In this document: one piece after another, positions 3,095 to 50,890 of the stretch
How positions within the stretch are numbered: position 1 is the stretch's first letter
Layout: every line of letters begins with the position of its first letter
Source: Bacilli bacterium
GTDB taxonomy: Bacteria > Bacillota_I > Bacilli_A > RF39 > UBA660
Direction: 5' to 3'
DNA: 54,902 bases
Assembly (NCBI GenBank): GCA_022791775.1
Contig: JAAVZT010000016.1
Location: 1 to 54,902, forward strand
Position numbers and translations under genes: made by a program
The notes under the pieces: model-generated
Told to the model about the DNA's origin: nothing
Database searches by the model: none
What the model saw: only the letters and a program-made list of their open reading frames with translations

Positions 3095-3995
3095 TGAAGT
3101 TGTCAACAAAAATTAAACACTAAAAAATTGTTATTTATAACCTAGTTGTGTTCTATAATCAACTGGGTTTTTATGTTGTAATGCAAAACTTGGGCGATAA
3201 TTGTTATTATCTCAAACTATATCATCAATAAATTCTTGAACTGTGTTATAATTATTTATGTTTAAATCAATATACATTTCTTTCTTAATCCAGCCATTTT
3301 TTGATTCAATTACTGGCTTATTTGTTAATGTTCCAGCCCTAGACATCGCTCTAGTCACTTTATAAGAATTAAATATATTGTTAATTGACACTTAGGAATA
3401 AACGGATCCTTGATCTGTATGAACAATACTCTCAAGGTTTTCATATCTCTTTTTATTTTGTTATTTAATATATCTTTATTTTTTTACCATTTATAAGATC
3501 CTGATCTAGATACTTTTAATATTTCACACAGAGATTTAATATTATATTCTTTACTTATTTCATATTTGGTTTGTGTTACATCGTGAATTTTACATACGTA
3601 CCACCTTCTTTCATTAGGAATCTTTTTTAACATTTCATTCTCGATTCTTAGTTTCATATTTTCATATTCTAGCTGTTCTTCTTTAGTTAAGTTTTTTTCG
3701 AAGAATATTTGGATAATGGATTACCTTGTTTCTTTTTATTTATTAATCCTTCTATTCCTTTTTCTCGATATTTTTTACCCAATTAAAAAATAATCCTAAA
3801 TTGATTCCGATTTCTCTTGAATATGTTCTTGAACGCTTTTCCATTGTTAATAATGGTTCAATTAATTTGTATTTTTCTTCTAGCGTTCATTGTTTAAATT
3901 TTTGTCCTTTACTAGTCATATTCACATCTCCTTGTCTTAATTATAACAAAAAAAGCATACACTTTTTTTATGTACACTTTTATCTTACGACTTCA
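3095..3995 (-). mobile_element. decayed IS3-family insertion sequence
   Basis: The segment encodes a broken IS3-type orfA/orfB pair on the - strand. Its ends show an imperfect inverted repeat: TGAAGTTGTCAACA at 3095 against TGAAGTCGTAAGATA read from 3995 on the other strand, with a further shared ACA.TAAAA some 25 bases in. At about 0.9 kb it is shorter than a usual 1.2-1.5 kb member. The flanks AAAGACAA just outside also mirror each other, although on the right side these bases encode the last residues of the neighbouring gene. Confidence 0.65.
3131..3919 (-). pseudogene. IS3-family transposase orfA/orfB remnant
   Basis: On the - strand, an ATG at 3919 with AAGGAG upstream opens an orfA-like HTH protein (MTSKGQKFKQ, stop, TLEEKYKLIEPLL, then a region like SREIGINLGLFFNWVKKYREKG). 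A frameshifted orfB follows. The DDE-domain pieces HTDQGSVYS, KPVIESKNGWIKKEMY and YRPSFALQHKNPVDY are recognisable. Several stops (after VYS, and TGA in place of a Trp before DNNNYRPS), frameshifts and a large internal deletion just before HTDQG make it inactive. Family placement rests on these motifs and on established knowledge of IS3 orfB proteins. Confidence 0.75.
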
Positions 3996-5356: not shown

Positions 5357-6976
5357 ATGATACTAAAAAAGCCGTATGCATTTTTAATCAAATATTTTCG
5401 CATCATTCATTTAGCTTTAGCTTTACCGATCATTTATTTTATTATCAAAACCAGTCAAATCGTCGGCTTTTTTTCCGATTATGTCCGCTCGAATTATAGT
5501 TCTTCAATTACTAATATAGCAAGTACTTATGTAAATTATTTTATGTATTTGAGCCTTTTAATTATTTTGGGTGCTGGTATTGCCATCTACTTTTTAATGC
5601 GCAAAAAAGAAAAATCAACAAAATTTTACTTTGCTTTAATCGTATTTTACTTAGTTCTTTTTGTGGTATTGGGTTTTACACATAGTATTTTATCTGGAAT
5701 GGAAAGAGATGTAATGGAAGCAACTACTGCACGAGCGTATCGAGATATCTCATATATATTTTATTTACCACAATATTTTTTCGTTGCTTTCACGTTATTT
5801 CGAGGAATCGGATTTGATATTAAAAAATTTAATTTTGAACTAGATATACAAGAATTAGAAATTACAGATATTGATTCAGAAGAATTTGAATTAAATTTGG
5901 GAATTGATGATTATAAAATTAAGAGAAATATTCGAAGATTTATTCGTGAATTTAAATACTATGTAAAAGAAAATCGTTTCATTTTTACTGTACTTTGCTC
6001 TATCGTCATAATTATTTTAGGTACATTAATTTATTTAAATCGAGGAGTATATAATCGAACTTATAAACAAAGCCAAACAGTTATTCACAATAACTTAAAC
6101 ATCCAAGTACAAAAAAGCATGATTACGAATCGAGATTATAGCGGAAATTTATTCAAAGATAATAAACATTATGTTGTGATTCAATTGTTTATTGAAAATA
6201 GAGGAAAAGATTCAAAAACATTAGATTATAATAATTTCTTTTTGGAATTAAAAACTCACCGTGTTTATCCTATTTTAGATCGCGCTTCCTATTTTTTAGA
6301 TTTTGGTTTACCACTGAAACAAGATACAGAATTAAAACCAAACAGTAAAAATACTTACGTAATGACTTATGAAATTAGTCCAAATGAACTTGAAAATAAA
6401 TATATTTTAAAAATATTAGAACAAGTGATTTATAACATAGGAGAGATTAATCCAACCTACAAGAAAATAGAATTAAAGCCCTTAAATACTCTTCTAATAG
6501 AGGATATGGGAATTACAAAACCAGGAAAAATCACAACTTTTGAACAGTCTTTTTTACAATATAGTTCTTTACAAATTAAAAATTATGAATTTAAAAATAG
6601 CTTAACATATCAATATCAACATTGTTATACTGCTACAAATTGTAGAATGTTAACAGATAAAGTCAGTGCTACCGAAAATGATAAAATATTAATGATACTA
6701 GATTCCAACTTAATTCTAGATAAAGAAACATTTTATTATAAATCAGTTCGAACAGAGCGTCTCTTTCCAAATCATTTTATTTCCCTAAAATATAAAAATG
6801 GTACAGAATCAAAAATAGTAAAAGTGGAAAATGTGACTCCAACCCATTATACGACTGGAATGGTCTTAAAAGTTCCTAAAATATTACAAAATGTAAATGA
6901 AATAGAAATGTTAGTAACCTTAAGAAATAAGCAGTATAGAATAGATTTAGCCAAACGAGAAAATCTCCCAAAATAG
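5357..6976 (+). CDS. polytopic membrane protein with a large extracytoplasmic C-terminal domain, 539 aa
   Basis: Hydrophobic helices lie at about residues 15-33 (IIHLALALPIIYFIIK), 59-80, 89-109 and 134-152. A charged cytoplasmic stretch follows (about 155-215, acidic then basic), then a fifth helix at about 216-235 (FTVLCSIVIIILGTLIYLN). The remaining 300 residues are outside and beta-rich, with a short CYTATNC segment that could form a disulfide. I do not recognise the family. It resembles lineage-specific Bacilli surface proteins. GGGAGAG precedes the ATG by 6 bases. It is a single-gene unit between a promoter and a strong terminator. Confidence 0.65.
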   Translation: MILKKPYAFLIKYFRIIHLALALPIIYFIIKTSQIVGFFSDYVRSNYSSSITNIASTYVNYFMYLSLLIILGAGIAIYFLMRKKEKSTKFYFALIVFYLVLFVVLGFTHSILSGMERDVMEATTARAYRDISYIFYLPQYFFVAFTLFRGIGFDIKKFNFELDIQELEITDIDSEEFELNLGIDDYKIKRNIRRFIREFKYYVKENRFIFTVLCSIVIIILGTLIYLNRGVYNRTYKQSQTVIHNNLNIQVQKSMITNRDYSGNLFKDNKHYVVIQLFIENRGKDSKTLDYNNFFLELKTHRVYPILDRASYFLDFGLPLKQDTELKPNSKNTYVMTYEISPNELENKYILKILEQVIYNIGEINPTYKKIELKPLNTLLIEDMGITKPGKITTFEQSFLQYSSLQIKNYEFKNSLTYQYQHCYTATNCRMLTDKVSATENDKILMILDSNLILDKETFYYKSVRTERLFPNHFISLKYKNGTESKIVKVENVTPTHYTTGMVLKVPKILQNVNEIEMLVTLRNKQYRIDLAKRENLPK

Positions 6977-9606: not shown

Positions 9607-10494
9607 ATGAAACCAAAAGAAAACTACAATCGTTTTAAGCATGTCACAAAATTAATTGCCAATATTATTTCTTGGACCGTTCTTGTTATCCTTTTGATAT
9701 TAGCTTCTTTTTTACTATATTATTATATAGCAAATAAAATTTATGCTAGCAAAGGAGAACAATATTCTCCTTATATCGGATTATATACTATTGTAAGTCC
9801 CAGTATGACCCCAAATTTAAATGTATATGACGTAATTGTTGATGTGAAAGTAAAAAAGCCAGAAGATATTAAAGTAGGAGATATTATTACCTTTATATCA
9901 ACAAGTAGTATCTCGAAAGGTTATACAGTAACACATCGAGTTGTAGCAATACTTGAAACCGAAAATGGAAAAGAATATAAAACACAAGGAGATAATAATC
10001 TAAGCCCCGATACAGCAACGGTTGAATTTAAAAATGTATTAGGGAAAGTTATCTTAAAAGTACCCCAATTAGGGAGAATTCAATATTTTCTTTCAAGCTC
10101 ATATGGATGGTTATTAATAGTAGTCATTCCAGCTCTAATTGTAATCATTAGCGATATTATTAAAATAATAAAATTAAGTGGAGCAAAAAAGAAAGTAAAT
10201 GTCGCTCTAGAAACAGAAGAAAAAAAAGAATTAATTGAGAAACAAAAAAAAGATAAAATCAAAAAAGAATTAAAAAAACGGTATCGAATAGAAAGAAATT
10301 TAAATGAACCAGATCCACTAGAAACCAATCATGAACTAACCAAAATAAGTGTTGGAGAAAAAGAAATAGTATTAAAAAAACCTGCTGTAGAAATGAAGTT
10401 TGAATTGCCAAAATTAAAAGTAGAAGAACCCAAAGAAGAAAAGAAAAAAAATAGTAAAAAAAGAAATAAAAAATCTACCAAGAAAAAATTCTAA
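9607..10494 (+). CDS. sipW: SipW-type (ER-type) signal peptidase I with Lys-rich tail
   Basis: Membrane serine peptidase expected to cut the SipW-class signals of the TasA-like proteins. Residues 16-42 form the N-terminal helix. The nucleophile region is SPSMTPN (Ser66), and THRV (His110) replaces the bacterial catalytic Lys, which marks the ER/SipW branch. GDNNLSPD (128-135) is the conserved acidic box. A second helix spans about 166-188. Unusually, some 100 more residues follow, almost all Lys/Glu (ending KKNSKKRNKKSTKKKF); ordinary SipW ends soon after the second helix. AGGAAGGG precedes ATG 9607. Positive residues after helix 2 suggest the tail is cytoplasmic. Confidence 0.88.
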   Translation: MKPKENYNRFKHVTKLIANIISWTVLVILLILASFLLYYYIANKIYASKGEQYSPYIGLYTIVSPSMTPNLNVYDVIVDVKVKKPEDIKVGDIITFISTSSISKGYTVTHRVVAILETENGKEYKTQGDNNLSPDTATVEFKNVLGKVILKVPQLGRIQYFLSSSYGWLLIVVIPALIVIISDIIKIIKLSGAKKKVNVALETEEKKELIEKQKKDKIKKELKKRYRIERNLNEPDPLETNHELTKISVGEKEIVLKKPAVEMKFELPKLKVEEPKEEKKKNSKKRNKKSTKKKF

Positions 10495-10514
10495 TGAAAA
10501 ATTAGAGTTTTTTT
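10487..10514 (+). terminator. intrinsic terminator of signal peptidase gene
   Basis: AATTCTAAT (10487-10495) pairs with ATTAGAGTT (10501-10509), including one G-U, around loop GAAAA, then T run. The stop codon is inside the stem. Confidence 0.75.
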
Positions 10515-10524
10515 GTATTTAAAC

Positions 10525-10554
10525 TTGCCATAATAAAAAAAATAGTTGTATAAT
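10525..10554 (+). promoter_or_regulatory. promoter of 178-aa protein gene
   Basis: TTGCCA (10525-10530), 18 bases, TATAAT (10549-10554); identical boxes and spacing to the promoter at 8058. Confidence 0.6.
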
Positions 10555-10582
10555 ACTCCGCGATCAGGGGGAAATTAAAACT

Positions 10583-11119
10583 ATGAAAAAAATAGATCAC
10601 ATCATTTATGGAAAATTATTTGAAATTTCCTTTTTAATCGCCTTTGTTATTTTAAGTTATCCAATTTGGCTCTCCTTAGATATAAACAAACAATTAGCAA
10701 ACGCATCTGTATATCAAGAAGCTCAATATTCTTATTTAGATATTGAACATAATCATAATGGCCCTATGTTCCCAATGAAAAATGAGGAAGCCATGGATAA
10801 ACTTTCTAAAACTAAAATAAATGTGACGAATGAAACAAAAACTATGGAAAATTATTCCCTTATTTTAAAAATAGCCAAAACATCGACTTTAGATTACCAA
10901 TTTTTAAATATTTTTTTAGATGGAAAAATTCAAGCGTTAAAAATTTTTCCAATGACAGAGGATTATGATTATTTTTATTTTGTATTAGATTCAAACTCAA
11001 TTGTAGGAGGTAAGAAAACTTACAATTTTCTAATGTGGATGGATTATGAAACTGGAAATGAGATGCAAGGAAAATCTTTAAATTATTCATTTGAACTATT
11101 AAATGGTATTAATCTTTAG
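10583..11119 (+). CDS. membrane-anchored protein of the SipW locus, 178 aa, unknown
   Basis: A basic start (MKKIDHIIYGK), one hydrophobic helix at about 12-31 and a hydrophilic outer domain of some 145 residues with beta-strand pattern. The signal lacks the G-x-T-[FY]-x-[YF] motif of the SipW substrates, so it is probably a permanent anchor. It shares promoter architecture with the repeat-protein gene and lies right after sipW, which suggests a role in assembling or anchoring the surface fibre. No family recognised. GGGGGAAA precedes the ATG. Confidence 0.6.
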   Translation: MKKIDHIIYGKLFEISFLIAFVILSYPIWLSLDINKQLANASVYQEAQYSYLDIEHNHNGPMFPMKNEEAMDKLSKTKINVTNETKTMENYSLILKIAKTSTLDYQFLNIFLDGKIQALKIFPMTEDYDYFYFVLDSNSIVGGKKTYNFLMWMDYETGNEMQGKSLNYSFELLNGINL

Positions 11120-11166
11120 ATATGAATGCATGATAAAATGAAGTAATAATTCATGAAGGAATTTAT

Positions 11167-12027
11167 ATGAAAATCAAAGAAGAAAATTTATATGAAATAT
11201 TCCGAAGACTTTGTAATAAAGAATATGCACTAGGAATTCATGGTACATTTAATATAGAAAAACCTACTTTAATGGATGCTTTACAAAGAGCCGATCGTAT
11301 TATGACTGTAGGATTAGAAAATTTCTATTCGGATTCTACTCCAAGAAACATTCATCGAACAGTAAAGTTTTTAGGGAAATTAGATGATCAAAGAGATCAA
11401 CAAAAAATAAAGTATCATTTAAAAAATTATAATTGGATGAATGGCACTGTTTATATTATTTTAGCTATTCCACGGATATTAAGAAATTCTCTAAATGAAA
11501 GTATATATTTAGGAATGCCCAATCATGATCTAATTATATATCAAGAAGATACAAGTTTTATGGATAAAGTAATGTATGGAACTGTGCCAAATTTTTTTAT
11601 ATTAGGTTATTATTATCATTTGGATGATCATTTTGTAAATTTAACATTAAATAAAAATCATATCGCATTCCATAATCATGTAGTGAATAAAGAATATTTT
11701 AATGAAATAAAATCCAAATTAAAAAAATTATTAAAAAAAGAATATTCTTTAATATTCGAAAGTATGAATCAAGTAGAATTACAGCAATTAAAAAAATATT
11801 GGAAACAAATGGGTTACGACTTTCAAAATTGCAATTCCCAATCTATTATGAATAAATTGGGAAAACAATTATGGATTATTGAAACTTTGAAACAATATTT
11901 AGATGAAGAAAACAATGTGAAAATTCCTCCCGGTAAATTTAGAATTGAGCAAATTATGAAAATAATAGAAAATGAAACAGGTAGAGAAAATGGGAATCAT
12001 AGAATTAAAAAAAGAAGAATAAAATAA
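11167..12027 (+). CDS. hypothetical cytoplasmic protein, 286 aa
   Basis: No signal peptide or membrane helix. It is Lys/Asn-rich, with a pattern of mixed strands and helices in the first 170 residues and mainly helices later; the C-terminus is very basic (KKRRIK). Stretches such as ALGIHGTF and MNGTVYIILAIPRILR look like the core of an alpha/beta domain, but I cannot assign it. GAAGGA precedes ATG 11167. It follows the SipW locus by 47 bases and ends before a strong terminator that separates it from uvrB, so it may be the last member of that locus. Confidence 0.6.
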   Translation: MKIKEENLYEIFRRLCNKEYALGIHGTFNIEKPTLMDALQRADRIMTVGLENFYSDSTPRNIHRTVKFLGKLDDQRDQQKIKYHLKNYNWMNGTVYIILAIPRILRNSLNESIYLGMPNHDLIIYQEDTSFMDKVMYGTVPNFFILGYYYHLDDHFVNLTLNKNHIAFHNHVVNKEYFNEIKSKLKKLLKKEYSLIFESMNQVELQQLKKYWKQMGYDFQNCNSQSIMNKLGKQLWIIETLKQYLDEENNVKIPPGKFRIEQIMKIIENETGRENGNHRIKKRRIK

Positions 12028-12069
12028 TATACAAACTTATTTCATAACTTGATTGAAGAGATGGAAAAT

Positions 12070-12101
12070 GATAAAATTGAGCCATAATTTTATCTTTTTT
12101 T
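12070..12101 (+). terminator. intrinsic terminator before uvrB
   Basis: GATAAAATT (12070-12078) pairs perfectly with AATTTTATC (12086-12094) around GAGCCAT, followed by seven T. Confidence 0.78.
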
Positions 12102-12176
12102 AAATTTTTAACTTCTTATTAACTAAGTATAAGAAAAAGAAAATTATAGCAAAATGATAAGGAATGGAGGCTATAT

Positions 12177-14135
12177 ATGTTTAAATTAGAAACGAAATTT
12201 CAACCGAGTGGAGATCAACCACAAGCAATTCAAAAATTAGTAGAAGGAATAATAGAAGGAAAAAAAGAACAAGTATTACTAGGTGCAACGGGAACTGGTA
12301 AAACCTTTACCATCGCAAATGTCATTCAAAAAGTGAATAAGCCAACACTCGTCTTAGCTCACAATAAAACCTTAGCTGGACAACTTTATGCAGAATTAAA
12401 AGAATTATTTCCAGAAAATCATGTAGAATATTTTGTAAGTTATTACGATTATTATCAACCTGAAGCTTATGTTCCAAGTAGTGACACTTATATTGAAAAA
12501 GATTCTTCTATCAATGATGAAATTGATGAATTGCGGCATGCAGCCACTAGTGCTCTCATAAATCATCGTGATGTCATAGTTGTTTCTAGTGTTTCTTGTA
12601 TATATGGAATCGGAGAGAAAGAAGAATACGAAAAGAAAATGCTAATTTTAAGTTTACACGATCAAGTAAATCGAAATACCATTATTAATAAATTAATTGA
12701 TATGACTTATGAACGAAGTGATATCGATTTTCATAGAGGAACATTTCGAGTTCGTGGAGATAAAATAGATATTATCCCCGTAAATGAGCATGCATCAGGG
12801 ATTCGGGTAGAATTATTTGGAGATGAAGTAGAGCGAATTTATACATTCGATCCTGTTACAGGAGCTATTGTTAGTGAAAAAAAGAGTATCACAATTTCTC
12901 CAGCAAGTCATTTCGTAACGAGTGACGAAAAAATGCAAGAAGCCATTAAACGAATTGAAGAAGAATTAAAATTTCGACTAGAAGAGCTAAAAAGCCAAAA
13001 TAAATTATTAGAAGAACAACGATTAAGAGAACGAACAAATTATGACATAGAAATGTTAAAAGAAACAGGTTTTTGTAGTGGTGTAGAAAACTATTCTCGC
13101 CATTTAGCTTTAAGAGAAGAAGGAGAAACACCTACCTGCTTAATTGATTTTTTTCCAAGTGATTTTTTATTGGTTGTCGACGAATCGCATGTTACTCTTC
13201 CCCAAGTAAGAGGAATGTATAACGGAGATCGAATGCGCAAACAAACTCTTGTAGATTACGGATTTCGCCTTCCGAGTGCTCTTGACAATCGTCCTTTAAA
13301 ATTTTCAGAATTTGAAGTAAAACTCAATCAAGCCATTTATGTATCAGCAACTCCTGGCGACTATGAAATGGAAAAAGCATCATCTGAAATCGTAGAACAG
13401 GTAATTCGTCCGACTGGTTTATTAGATCCTACTATCGAAATTAAACCTAGTAATGGCCAAATTGATGATATTATTTCACAGATTCGAGAACGAATTGAAA
13501 AAAATGAACGAGTTTTAATTACAACCTTAACAATTCGGATGAGCGAAGAATTAAGCAATTATTTAAAAGAAATGAATATTAAAGTAGCATATTTACATAA
13601 TGAGATAAAAACGTTAGAACGTTTAAAAATCATTCAAGAATTGCGAAAAGGAGTATATGACTGTGTAGTAGGAATTAATTTATTGCGAGAAGGAATCGAT
13701 ATTCCAGAAGTAAGTTTAATTTGTATTTTAGACGCAGACAAACAAGGATTTTTACGAAGTAGTAGAAGTTTGATTCAAACGATCGGAAGATGTGCTCGAA
13801 ATGAGCACGGCCATGTAATCATGTATGCAGATACCATATCAGAAGCCATGCAGCTTGCAATTGATGAAACCAAAAGAAGAAGAAGAATTCAAGAAAAATA
13901 TAATGAAGAGCATAATATTGTCCCAAAGACTATTCAAAAGCAGATTAAAGAAGTAGTGACAAATGAAGTAAAATCATCTTCTCATAAACCAAAGTTATCG
14001 AAAAAAGAAGAACAAGATATTATAATTAGAATAGAAGAAGAAATGAAAATAGCTGCAAAAAATTTGGATTTCGAACGTGCTATGGAATTACGGGATATTT
14101 TATTTGAAATGAAAAGTGAAAAAAAGACAAAATAA
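12177..14135 (+). CDS. uvrB: excinuclease ABC subunit B
   Basis: UvrB, the damage-verifying helicase-like subunit of nucleotide excision repair, loaded by UvrA and partnering UvrC. At 652 residues it has the normal length. Walker A is GATGTGKT (38-45), the beta-hairpin region is [21 protein letters not shown], the DEAD-like motif is VVDESH, and the helicase C motifs [16 protein letters not shown] and QTIGRCARN are intact. A C-terminal UVR domain ([13 protein letters not shown]) binds UvrC. AATGGAGG precedes the ATG. uvrA lies 4 kb downstream as a separate unit. I see no clear LexA-type operator in front. Confidence 0.97.
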
Positions 14136-43540: not shown

Positions 43541-43613
43541 GAAATTTTGATAGTAAAAATATTCTTAACATAAAAATGTACAAAAGTGTAAATAATAAAA
43601 ACAGGTGATTTTC

Positions 43614-44363
43614 ATGCCAAATATTCACAGTAATATCTCTTTTGCATTAGTAAATATACCCGTTGTAATGAATCCTATTATTAAAAACAATGATACAGCT
43701 TTCAATCAATTGCACAAAAAATGTCTCCACCGTGTTTCCTATGTAAAATATTGTTCTCACTGTAAAGAACCATTAAAAGAACCAGAAATTATAAAAGGGT
43801 ATGAATATGAAAAAGATTCTTTTTTAACTTTCGATAAACAAGAATTAAATAATCTTAGACCAGAAAATGAAAAAGAAATTGAGATTGTATCCTTTATTCC
43901 ATTAAAAGAAATTGATCCTAGTTATTTTGAAAAAAGTTATTTTTTGCAAACAGAAACAAAATCAAAAGCATATCTTTTATTTTGTGAAGCTTTAAAAAAA
44001 ACCAAACAAGTTGCTTTAGCAAAAACTGTAATTGGCAGTAAATTTTATTATTGTATTTTAAGATTTTCGGAAACAGGAATTATTATGACAACTCTTTTTT
44101 TTGAAGAAGAAGTGAACATTCCCAATCAAGAATTAAATGGAAAACTAAATGAAAAAGAACTCAATTTAGCAATTCAGTTAATTGATTCGCTAAAAGGGAC
44201 CTTTGAACCAGAAAAATATAAGGATGAATATCAAGATAATATAAGAAAAGCAATAGACGATAAACTAAATGGGAAAAAAGTAAAAGCCCAAAAAAAGAAA
44301 CCGCATCGCCAAATAAATGATTTGATGGAAGCTTTAGAAAAGAGTTTAAAAAAGAAGAAATGA
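43614..44363 (+). CDS. ku: Ku protein, non-homologous end joining
   Basis: Bacterial Ku homodimer subunit that rings DNA ends and recruits the ligase. It is 249 residues. The core begins with the SFALVNIPVVMN strand typical of Ku (usually SFGLVNVPV), then a C-x-x-C pair (YCSHCKEPL), IEIVSFIPLKEIDPSYFEKSYFL-like beta-barrel strands (only partly quoted) and the KTVIGSKFYYCIL region. The C-terminus is a basic tail (KKVKAQKKKPHR). ATG 43614 is preceded by AGGTGA; the GTG at 43605 is within that site. It overlaps the ligase gene by 4 bases (ATGA), so the two are translationally coupled. Confidence 0.92.
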   Translation: MPNIHSNISFALVNIPVVMNPIIKNNDTAFNQLHKKCLHRVSYVKYCSHCKEPLKEPEIIKGYEYEKDSFLTFDKQELNNLRPENEKEIEIVSFIPLKEIDPSYFEKSYFLQTETKSKAYLLFCEALKKTKQVALAKTVIGSKFYYCILRFSETGIIMTTLFFEEEVNIPNQELNGKLNEKELNLAIQLIDSLKGTFEPEKYKDEYQDNIRKAIDDKLNGKKVKAQKKKPHRQINDLMEALEKSLKKKK

Positions 44364-45256
44364 ACATATGGAATAATCGAACATGGCATCCAATGCTATT
44401 AGAGGAAAGTGAAAAGCCCTTTCATAATCAAAATTATATTTTTGAAATAAAATTTGATGGCTACCGAGCAATTCTTTTTGCAACCCAAAAAGGTATTTCT
44501 ATTAAAAGTCGAAAGGGTAGGGATTTAACCCATTTATTTCCTGAGTTACAAATGATTAAAAAATGGATAAAGTACGATACCATATTGGATGGAGAGATCG
44601 TATTATTTGATAAAGGACGGCCATCTTTTTCTAAATTACAAACTAGAGCGAAACAAAAAGAACCAAATAAAATAAAATATTTATCCAAAAAAGAGCCAGT
44701 TGTATTCGTCTGCTTTGATATTTTATATCAAAATAAAGAGTTAATAAATAATCCTTTGTGGCAGAGAAAAGAAGTATTAAATCAAATACCTGACTCAGAA
44801 TATTTTATCAAAGTAAAATATATTAAAAAGGAAGGAATTCAAATATTTCAAGAAATTAAAAAACTGCAATTAGAAGGAATGGTCGCCAAAAAAATAGATA
44901 GTCTTTACAAAATAAATACAAGAAGCAAAGAATGGATTAAAATAAAAAATATAAAAAAAGAATATTTTTGGATATGTGGATATATTGATAATCAATTAAG
45001 TTCTTCTATAACATTGATATTAGGTGAAAAAAAACAAGGAAAATATTATTTTAGTGGAAAAGTTTTATTAGGTAAGAAAAGAGAACTAGCTAAATTAATC
45101 CAAAATCTTTCAAAACAAAATAAGAATAATTTAGAAAACATAACCGAAGACTATATAACAATTCCCATTATATATCAATGTGAAGTAAGCTATACAGAAC
45201 GTACCAAAAATAATTTTCTTCGTCATGCTAAATTTGAAAGTTATCGAAAAGAATGA
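44360..45256 (+). CDS. ATP-dependent DNA ligase, LigD ligase-domain type
   Basis: Seals ends held by Ku. It is 298 residues and contains only the adenylation and OB domains. Motif I is EIKFDGYRA (Lys31), followed by LDGEIV (motif III), FVCFDIL (IIIa), EGMVAKK (motif IV) and WIKIKN (motif V). The OB part ends near YTERTKNNFLRH, which resembles the LigD C-terminal motif. The polymerase and phosphoesterase domains of full LigD are absent, and no separate genes for them lie in the window. It overlaps ku by 4 bases. Confidence 0.92.
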   Translation: MNIWNNRTWHPMLLEESEKPFHNQNYIFEIKFDGYRAILFATQKGISIKSRKGRDLTHLFPELQMIKKWIKYDTILDGEIVLFDKGRPSFSKLQTRAKQKEPNKIKYLSKKEPVVFVCFDILYQNKELINNPLWQRKEVLNQIPDSEYFIKVKYIKKEGIQIFQEIKKLQLEGMVAKKIDSLYKINTRSKEWIKIKNIKKEYFWICGYIDNQLSSSITLILGEKKQGKYYFSGKVLLGKKRELAKLIQNLSKQNKNNLENITEDYITIPIIYQCEVSYTERTKNNFLRHAKFESYRKE

Positions 45257-49252: not shown

Positions 49253-49360
49253 CATTTTATTTTAAAATAAGTGTATATTTTTGTTATTGGGAAAGCAATT
49301 ATTATAGTGCGTTATTAAATATTAATAAGTTTTAGAATAAAAAGTAGTTATTATTAGTAA

Positions 49361-49376
49361 AACCTTTATTTATAAG
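49361..49376 (+). repeat. left inverted-repeat arm
   Basis: AACCTTTATTTATAAG; its exact reverse complement is at 50794-50809. Confidence 0.7.
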
Positions 49377-49400
49377 CGCGTATGCGAGATTTTAAAGATA

Positions 49401-49421
49401 TTTTACTACTAATTTACTACT
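49401..49421 (+). repeat. left direct repeat, two TTTACTACT words
   Basis: TTTACTACT occurs at 49402-49410 and 49413-49421. The whole 21 bases recur exactly at 50701-50721, preceded at both sites by a related GATTT[TC]AAA stretch. Confidence 0.75.
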
Positions 49422-49562
49422 GTATATATTTTTTCAAATAGAATATTAATTTGTAATTTTATTGTTTTTTTATTAACATCTTTGTTGGAGCATTAGGAAA
49501 AGGCATAACTAATTTATATTTTTCTGCAAGTTTATAAAGATCATTACCTAGAAACTCATTCG

Positions 49563-50324
49563 CTATTGCTGGTTGAAATAATTCCATACTTTTTGTTGTA
49601 TATCGGAATCATTTAAGTTAATTATAGAAAATATTTCATCTAAGGTAACTATTCTACCAGTCTCTGGATTTATTCTATTAACTGCAGCCAAATTAATTCC
49701 AAATACATCAACGAAATATAGGAAGATTGCACTTTTTATATCTAATTCTTTTGTGAATAAACCAAATTTATAATCATAGTATTTTTCGCTTAATACTTCC
49801 CTAGGTGTTCCTAAAAAATCTGAAAAACCTACTGCTGGCATTTGTTTTATTTGTAAACCATCATAGTCTATGAAAAACACTTTACCATCAGCAGTAATTC
49901 TAATATTTTCTGTTGTACACAAATCCGGGAAAACTATTCCGGTATTATTTCCAGCTTTTATGTTATTTTCAATTTGAGAGTGAATGTTTGCGTAACTAGC
50001 TAAATCAAATATATTTTCATAATAATCAGTAAAATCAACGCCTGGAATATATGGAATTGAATAAGCTTTAACAATATTTTCATCCTCGAGCATCATAGTT
50101 GGCCAAGAGAAATTAGCAAAACCAGTTAAATTTTTTACTTCATTTAGTCTAGTTTCTAAATTGTAACCAGTATTAGATATTATTTTTAGTAACTCATCAT
50201 CGAGTATTTTTAATAATTCCCCATTAGGAAATTTTATTATTGTAGTATCTTCACATCTTTTTAATATTTTATATCTTTTGTTTTCGTTTAAAAATTCTTT
50301 TAAATTTAACTTTGGTATTCCCAT
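49563..50324 (-). CDS. protein-kinase-like protein, reading frame broken near the C-terminus
   Basis: A 253-residue soluble protein with a kinase-like fold: an N-lobe with FPNGELLKIL, hinge-like AYSIPYIPGVDF, a catalytic-loop-like segment FPDLCTTENIRI and a DFG-like IDYDG. The usual H-x-D is replaced (F-P-D) and the Asp-to-Asn spacing is one residue too long, so activity is doubtful. One base missing in the TT of TATTTCAACC (about 49577) would explain the stop at 49563. In the shifted frame, coding continues as FQPAIANEFLGNDLYKLAEK to a stop at 49459, giving about 288 residues. GGGGGG precedes ATG 50324. It is the only gene inside the repeat-bounded segment. Confidence 0.65.
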   Translation of the reverse strand: MGIPKLNLKEFLNENKRYKILKRCEDTTIIKFPNGELLKILDDELLKIISNTGYNLETRLNEVKNLTGFANFSWPTMMLEDENIVKAYSIPYIPGVDFTDYYENIFDLASYANIHSQIENNIKAGNNTGIVFPDLCTTENIRITADGKVFFIDYDGLQIKQMPAVGFSDFLGTPREVLSEKYYDYKFGLFTKELDIKSAIFLYFVDVFGINLAAVNRINPETGRIVTLDEIFSIINLNDSDIQQKVWNYFNQQ

Positions 50325-50525
50325 AATAATCCCCCCTTTTTGCTAAATATATTATTCTTTTTTTAAATGTTTGTCATCCTCCTTCTCTTGTTATAATTAT
50401 TTCTATTAAAATACAAAAAAATTGTACTATTATAATAGAATTTAGAAAAATACTATATGATTAAAGTATAGATTATTGATGACTATTGTTTTAAATAATA
50501 GCAAATTAATTTACAAAATTTATTT

Positions 50526-50546
50526 GCTACATGCTTCATGCTACAT
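50526..50546 (+). repeat. three tandem 7-bp units
   Basis: GCTACAT, GCTTCAT, GCTACAT in direct succession, immediately before the hairpin pair. It could be an iteron-like protein-binding site. Confidence 0.6.
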
Positions 50547-50610
50547 AATAAGAGGTAATACTATACCTTATTATGGCGAGGACTTAAGTGGCTACGCCAC
50601 TAAATCTTGC
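50547..50610. other. paired stem-loops of unknown role
   Basis: Stem 1: AATAAGAGGTA (50547-50557) with TACCTTATT (50564-50572), two-base bulge. Stem 2: an outer GCGAGG/TCTTGC part with G-U pairs and small bulges, then AGTGGC (50587-50592) closed by TAC against GCCACT (50596-50601), total span 50576-50610, followed by TTTTAT. This is the most GC-rich and most folded DNA of the accessory region. It could be a nicking/transfer site, an attenuator or a small RNA. Confidence 0.5.
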
Positions 50611-50700
50611 TTTTATAAATAGATATTCTTATACTGTTACTGTGCAATGTCATAGTATTTTTTAAATATTTAAAATTAATACTTTAAAAGATTTCAAAAT

Positions 50701-50721
50701 TTTTACTACTAATTTACTACT
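50701..50721 (+). repeat. right direct repeat, two TTTACTACT words
   Basis: Exact copy of 49401-49421, 1300 bases away and in the same orientation. Confidence 0.75.
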
Positions 50722-50793
50722 TTTGAAAGTGAAAATATAAGAAATTGTAACAATTTATAAGAATATCATTCAAAAACAAAAATGCCGTAAACA

Positions 50794-50809
50794 CTTATAA
50801 ATAAAGGTT
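50794..50809 (-). repeat. right inverted-repeat arm
   Basis: CTTATAAATAAAGGTT, the exact reverse complement of 49361-49376. Confidence 0.7.
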
Positions 50810-50890
50810 ATAATGCTATTTAAAAACTTATAAAAAGATATTCCCAAAAATACAATATTTTTGTATTAATAATTAATAAGGTGATTTAAA

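Follow-up and report, generated by a model that had tools for sequence, protein, structure and literature searches.

The segment at 49339–50862 of the analysed window, a 54,902-nucleotide contig of a Bacilli bacterium, is most likely a doubly non-autonomous mobile gene cassette, mobilised by an element that encodes Int, Xis, Rep and TcpA. The action of Int and Rep on this cassette in trans is an inference. A trans-mobilised cassette without an integrase was the core idea of an earlier note on this DNA, and it is supported by the variety of cargo genes found between the same ends, by an empty site for one family member (L148) and by relatives that code for Int and have identical types of ends.

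The repeats described in the earlier note are exact. A 16-bp inverted repeat (49361–49376 on the plus strand, inside the left end, and 50794–50809 on the minus strand; 16/16) encloses a 21-bp direct repeat (49401–49421 and 50701–50721, both on the plus strand; 21/21), each copy of which contains two TTTACTACT words. Among 300 dinucleotide-shuffled versions of the 1.6-kb segment, none had a direct repeat of at least 21 bp (the longest was 17 bp), whereas four reached a 16-bp inverted repeat, and the direct repeat is therefore the strong signal. The 1.1-Mb genome has exactly four occurrences of a 20-mer of the direct repeat, all of them paired: one pair is that of the window cassette, and the other marks the ends of a 3.5-kb element on contig 14. 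The reversed 20-mer, used as a control, is absent from the whole genome. The repeats are not scattered genome-wide but tied to such cassettes, and ends of this kind are present in four of the seven genomes of the genus and absent from the other three.

The repeats are real, but the cassette limits do not coincide with the inverted repeats. The true ends lie 22 bp farther out on the left (~49339) and 53 bp farther out on the right (~50862), giving a cassette of ~1,524 bp that begins with AAAAAG and ends with ATATTTTT, flanked by the coupling-like bases AGAAT (left) and GTATT (right). These limits were set using two cassettes, L047 and L068, that are alike end to end and have unrelated flanks, together with a junction table for 47 cassettes. 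Identity between near-identical cassettes runs from AAAAA to TATTTTT, which fixes the true ends at these positions.

Comparison of sequences from different genomes demonstrates, at that level, that the cassettes are mobile. Three pairs are 97.3% (L047/L068), 98.6% (L110/L125) and 96.6% (L102/L145) identical from end to end, with unrelated flanks in each pair, and the hosts of L047 and L068 belong to different genera. Junctions consist of a T-run, a short gap and an A-run at 43 of 47 left ends and 44 of 47 right ends, which meets the criterion for Tn916-type insertion (T-run to A-run, with coupling sequences of 5–7 bp); short coupling sequences at the junctions are the Tn916 pattern. The search for empty sites that the earlier note proposed succeeded for one member, L148, which interrupts a sequence that is continuous in L049 and L137 (left junction ACTTTT-ATATAA-AAAG, right junction TATTTTT-ATCAAA-AAAG, empty site ACTTTA-ATGATA-AAAG). 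No clean empty site was found for the window copy: in two relatives (G148 and G146) the gene to the right is present and no cassette lies beside it, but the left neighbour is a different one. Long open frames are avoided as targets, with 20% of insertions falling within frames of at least 100 codons vs 84% of random positions. Preferential insertion into transcription terminators, hinted at by two solo relics (see below), was considered and rejected, as 17 of 46 insertions compared with 34% of random T-runs is no enrichment. L049, L137 and L148 have in common a leader-like stretch of ~330 bp inside their cassettes that starts with TGTTATTATGAATATGTCAAGGGAAC, and it is there that a second cassette was inserted in L148.

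Two elements of roughly 8 kb (L045 and L046), from two genomes of the family, have the ends and arms of the cassettes and encode the enzymes that the cassettes lack. Their integrase combines PF02920, the arm-binding domain of Tn916, with PF00589; it matches Tn1549 Int structures at about 1e-134, as well as the DNA-binding (arm-binding) domain of Tn916 Int. The entries concerned are named only 'Int protein' or 'Integrase', and we take them to be those of Tn1549 and Tn916. Paired arm sites of the AGTAGTAAA type inside inverted core-type ends are present in the window cassette, where each direct repeat supplies two such words, and are common to the full relatives; the Tn916-type arm sites proposed earlier thus belong to ends that are also carried by elements encoding a Tn916/Tn1549-type integrase. 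In the full elements the direct repeat reads TTTACTACGAATTTACTACT and the frame is open, and the cassettes mostly have TAA or CAA at that codon. The other products of both elements include a Tn916-type Xis (PF09035), a HerA/TcpA-like ATPase and a PF02407-containing Rep, the nearest solved structures of which are PCV2 Rep and other CRESS-type Reps. A full-length cognate Int (at least 63% identity) was found in 3 of the 145 family genomes and a Rep relative in 6, the origin-associated motif RF03070 being present in 16.

The origin lies directly upstream of rep in the full elements, and the same hairpin is found beside rep in L045, L046 and L057. The last of these, on contig 8 of G083, encodes a Rep that is 65% identical and has the same origin and iterons, with a large serine recombinase in place of the Tn916-type integrase. 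The Rep–origin pair therefore moves independently of the integrase. In two elements whose Reps are ~37–39% identical, a CAGTATTAC hairpin is present on another stem, and L179, with a Rep that is 28% identical, has no such hairpin.

The structured noncoding region of the cassette, which the earlier note had rightly singled out, is most likely a CRESS-type rolling-circle DNA origin, a function that the note had not foreseen; nicking and replication by Rep are inferred. A hairpin at 50525–50575 on the minus strand matches the Rfam family RF03070 ('ssNA-helicase RNA') with 39.6 bits and an E-value of 6e-5. This is just below the gathering score of 41.5, which is exceeded by the contig-14 copy in the same genome (44.9) and by many relatives. 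Its nonanucleotide, TAGTATTAC (50563–50555), is the one known from circovirus/nanovirus-type rolling-circle origins; it is present in 60 of 63 aligned copies, and one copy has TAATATTAC, the geminivirus form. The loop is followed by repeated TGTAGCA words resembling Rep-binding iterons. In the window, three iteron-like words, GCTACAT GCTTCAT GCTACAT (50526–50546; ATGTAGC on the other strand), are putative Rep-binding sites, and they are kept across the 63 aligned copies and in the Rep-coding elements. A second conserved hairpin at 50575–50610 on the plus strand contains covarying pairs, and a terminator-like hairpin with a T-run (50631–50664, plus strand), located between the origin and the right arm, is found in 61 of 67 right ends. 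In three helices taken together, both partners have changed in 9 of 21 pairs, compared with 1.7 expected from shuffles, and slid registers come nowhere near this figure. CRESS Reps cleave a hairpin-exposed nonanucleotide (PMC8780604), and the cassette satisfies the criterion for a CRESS-type satellite, with a NANTATTAC loop on a stem and iterons that match those of the cognate Rep element. The main evidence for a DNA origin is the co-occurrence of Rep type and hairpin type. The hairpin region could alternatively work as RNA, for example by regulating the cargo, in which case the cassette would be a regulatory unit; RF03070 is after all a curated RNA family, and the terminator-like hairpin adjoins it on the opposite strand. 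We find this barely credible, given that the loop is a CRESS nonanucleotide beside CRESS rep genes with iterons, that the more distant Reps are paired with CAGTATTAC on a different stem, and that the region accompanies unrelated cargoes, with the model strand antisense to nearly all of them.

The cassettes form a family with a conserved backbone and diverse cargo. A single 22-base pattern retrieved 63 further stretches from MAGs labelled as uncultured Bacilli, Tenericutes, Erysipelotrichaceae and similar. About 45 cassettes are complete, measuring 0.8–1.6 kb, and in the pooled set of 67 right ends the origin is 137–164 bp from the right arm. Of 51 cassettes, 47 have their main ORF directed at the origin, and the window cassette is one of the four exceptions. 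As anticipated, the ends and repeats recur in related genomes with many different cargo genes, which include GNAT acetyltransferases, NUDIX and HD hydrolases, Ppx/GppA, Ham1, AlkD-type repair proteins, SLOG/LOG proteins, a metallophosphatase, transglutaminase-like proteins and a second kinase-like protein. In the rest of the phylum RF03070 is rare, with matches in 4 of 392 genomes, the host included; in two of these genomes, which belong to a different family of the class, the int relic adjoins the origin, as in the cassettes. An arm pattern had no match in the viral contig set.

Some loci are composite. In the 3.5-kb element on contig 14 of the host genome (G000, 10030–13665; L005:4030–7665), one left and two right cassette ends are arranged in tandem, and the DNA between them holds a DUF1653 gene and a radical-SAM-like gene that is broken. 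The element has similar ends and another cargo, along with two origin matches, one of them weak, and part of it is 89.5% identical, in inverse orientation, to the cassette in L052. In L116, two cassettes with GNAT and Ppx/GppA cargo stand in direct tandem and share one junction (direct repeats at 5780 and 7212, minus strand).

Solo relics of ~200–250 bp are located on contigs 20 (near 3431–3505) and 22 (near 12900–13100) of the host genome (L183 and L182) and on contig 2 of G079 (L184). They retain both cassette ends and a single arm repeat, without cargo or origin, a structure that recombination of one direct repeat with the other would leave. Ends can evidently persist without an origin, and in Tn916-type systems the Int sites alone are enough for excision and insertion. 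Both points would suit MITE-like cassettes that hop only within cells, depending on Int, with the origin hairpin a passenger that Rep does not use. This is improbable, since conservation and covariation over 63 copies extend to the nonanucleotide, the iterons and both hairpins, and the cassettes are distributed across genera and into another family.

The window cassette carries one ORF (49563–50324, minus strand) of 253 amino acids, in line with the single kinase-like gene claimed earlier. The kinase assignment is borne out at the profile level: a profile of 17 homologues matches GCN2 kinase and other kinases with an E-value of 9e-5, and the protein family has invariant Lys, Asp, Asn and Asp residues at kinase-motif positions. 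An AlphaFold model made from the single sequence was unusable (mean pLDDT 40.6), and the role of the cargo is inferred. Relative to the homologues, about 36 final codons (about 49451–49562) are out of frame by one base, which shortens the ORF; this may be either true decay or an assembly error. Capture of the gene from the chromosome of G126, which has a 75% identical homologue, was considered and dropped, as that locus itself seems to hold an eroded left end of a cassette; the G126 contig ends short of any origin. The route by which new cargo is acquired is likewise inferred.

No integrase gene was found within the window cassette, which was correctly described as integrase-less: it holds only a relic of the 3′ end of int (50695–50784, plus strand) that specifies the last 30 Int residues with two stops, and it fulfils neither the Tn916/Tn1549 criterion of coding for Int and Xis nor the IME criterion of self-encoded excision and integration. 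Translation of the right 110 bp gives these C-terminal residues with 63% identity in the window and 64–74% in the other copies of the same genome, and the right arm site lies within the relic. Because the right end is an int relic, we infer that the backbone derives from an int-bearing element by internal loss followed by diversification. Neither a cognate Int nor a cognate Rep was found in the assembled host genome (91% complete), and the check for a Tn916-type integrase elsewhere in this assembly accordingly came back negative. The window copy may therefore now be stranded. The missing helper genes, the int relic, the solo relics on contigs 20 and 22 and the frameshifted cargo could also be explained by an immobile, CIME-like decay product, that is, a mobilisable element that lost its genes in place and whose shared sequences are leftovers. 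We give this explanation little credence, because the backbone is compact, with the origin 137–164 bp from the arm in 67 copies and many cargoes, because near-identical cassettes occur at unrelated sites in different genomes, and because the origin is structurally constrained. A cassette mobilised in trans remains the best explanation; against it stand the host without cognate Int or Rep, the rarity of full helpers, the lack of a clean empty site for the window copy, the lack of an observed circular form and the cargo frameshift.

The neighbours of the window cassette are a UDG-like gene and a C5-methylase gene to the right and, farther left, genes for Ku and DNA ligase. The latter two are adjacent (43605–45256) and encode Ku and an ATP-dependent ligase, the two partners of bacterial end joining, here in a genome of 1.1 Mb. 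PADLOC gave no match for the window cargo, naming only the methylase at this locus, and yielded only weak partial matches for some other cargoes of the family. The idea that the cassette sits in a defence region is unsupported, as its neighbours form no recognised defence island.

We propose the following scheme for mobilisation. A co-resident mobilisable element encoding Int, a Tn916-type Xis, a TcpA-like ATPase and a CRESS Rep would become active, and its Int and Xis would excise the cassette, joining the ends across a coupling sequence of 5–6 bp. The helper Rep would then nick TAGTATT/AC in the origin hairpin, so that the circle could be copied or single-stranded transfer launched, and Int would put the circle back into DNA at a site with a T-run on one side and an A-run on the other. 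Cell-to-cell (conjugative) transfer through TcpA and a host T4SS is inferred, and the helper element can apparently move cassettes between gut bacteria.

On balance, we lean towards a broader interpretation in which the cassettes constitute an integron-like economy without an integron: single-gene units without mobility genes are inserted by a Tn916-type recombinase and copied or transferred by a CRESS virus-type Rep, both foreign to them, and interchangeable metabolic genes circulate among small-genome Bacilli. Its corollary is that the Rfam 'ssNA-helicase RNA' is a replication origin and not an RNA, a correction that would be cheap to test. Single genes could in this way spread without an attached mobility gene, and for that reason such cassettes would be missed by detectors of integrases, relaxases and transposases. 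An origin of eukaryotic-virus type, the TAGTATTAC hairpin, would be linked to bacterial gene mobility, and with Int and Rep named as the helpers, simultaneous hitchhiking on both can be put to a direct test. Our literature search found no account of integrase- and Rep-less cassettes with both sets of sites and no description of RF03070 as an origin; with incomplete coverage, both absences are weak evidence.

Several known systems share features with the cassettes. Like Tn916 and Tn1549, they have paired AGTAGTAAA arm words, T-run/A-run targets, short coupling sequences and the same Int family in their helpers; unlike these elements, they have no int, xis or conjugation genes, measure 1.5 kb rather than tens of kb and possess a CRESS origin. 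Streptococcal IMEs with TcpA, Rel_PF02407 (Viral_Rep), xis and a tyrosine integrase have been described (Coluzzi 2017, PMC5357655), and L045 and L046 have the same gene set, comprising a TcpA-like ATPase, a Viral_Rep-type Rep/relaxase, Xis and a tyrosine Int. Whereas those IMEs encode their own integrase and relaxase, the cassette has no gene for either, retaining just the sites and a single gene. Helper-dependent hitchers, which the cassette resembles in its dependence, are also known: CIMEs lack integration and transfer genes and have att sites, and MGIs and iOriTs retain only oriT, MGIs encoding their own integrase (PMC5704250, PMC11389934). The cassette meets the CIME criterion of lost integration and transfer genes with both att sites kept, but not that of a decayed island left in place, since one backbone recurs with many cargoes at unrelated sites. 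A CIME is a lone island in decay, in most cases next to another element, whereas the cassettes form a dispersed family with interchangeable cargo that needs both Int and Rep from outside. Integrative pCRESS plasmids (PMC6668415) and CRESS-DNA viruses (PMC8780604) provide the parallel for the HUH-SF3-type Rep of the helper and the hairpin-borne TAGTATTAC; unlike a pCRESS plasmid, the cassette is a Rep-less satellite fused to Tn916-type ends.

With integron gene cassettes, including CALIN, and with mobile insertion cassettes (MIC), the family shares an organisation of about one gene per unit with the enzyme supplied elsewhere. The cargo spectrum resembles that of integron cassettes, and MICs use insertion-sequence ends. 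Unlike integron cassettes, the insertions are dispersed and no integron platform was seen, and the cassettes described here carry a replication origin, which neither integron cassettes nor MICs have.
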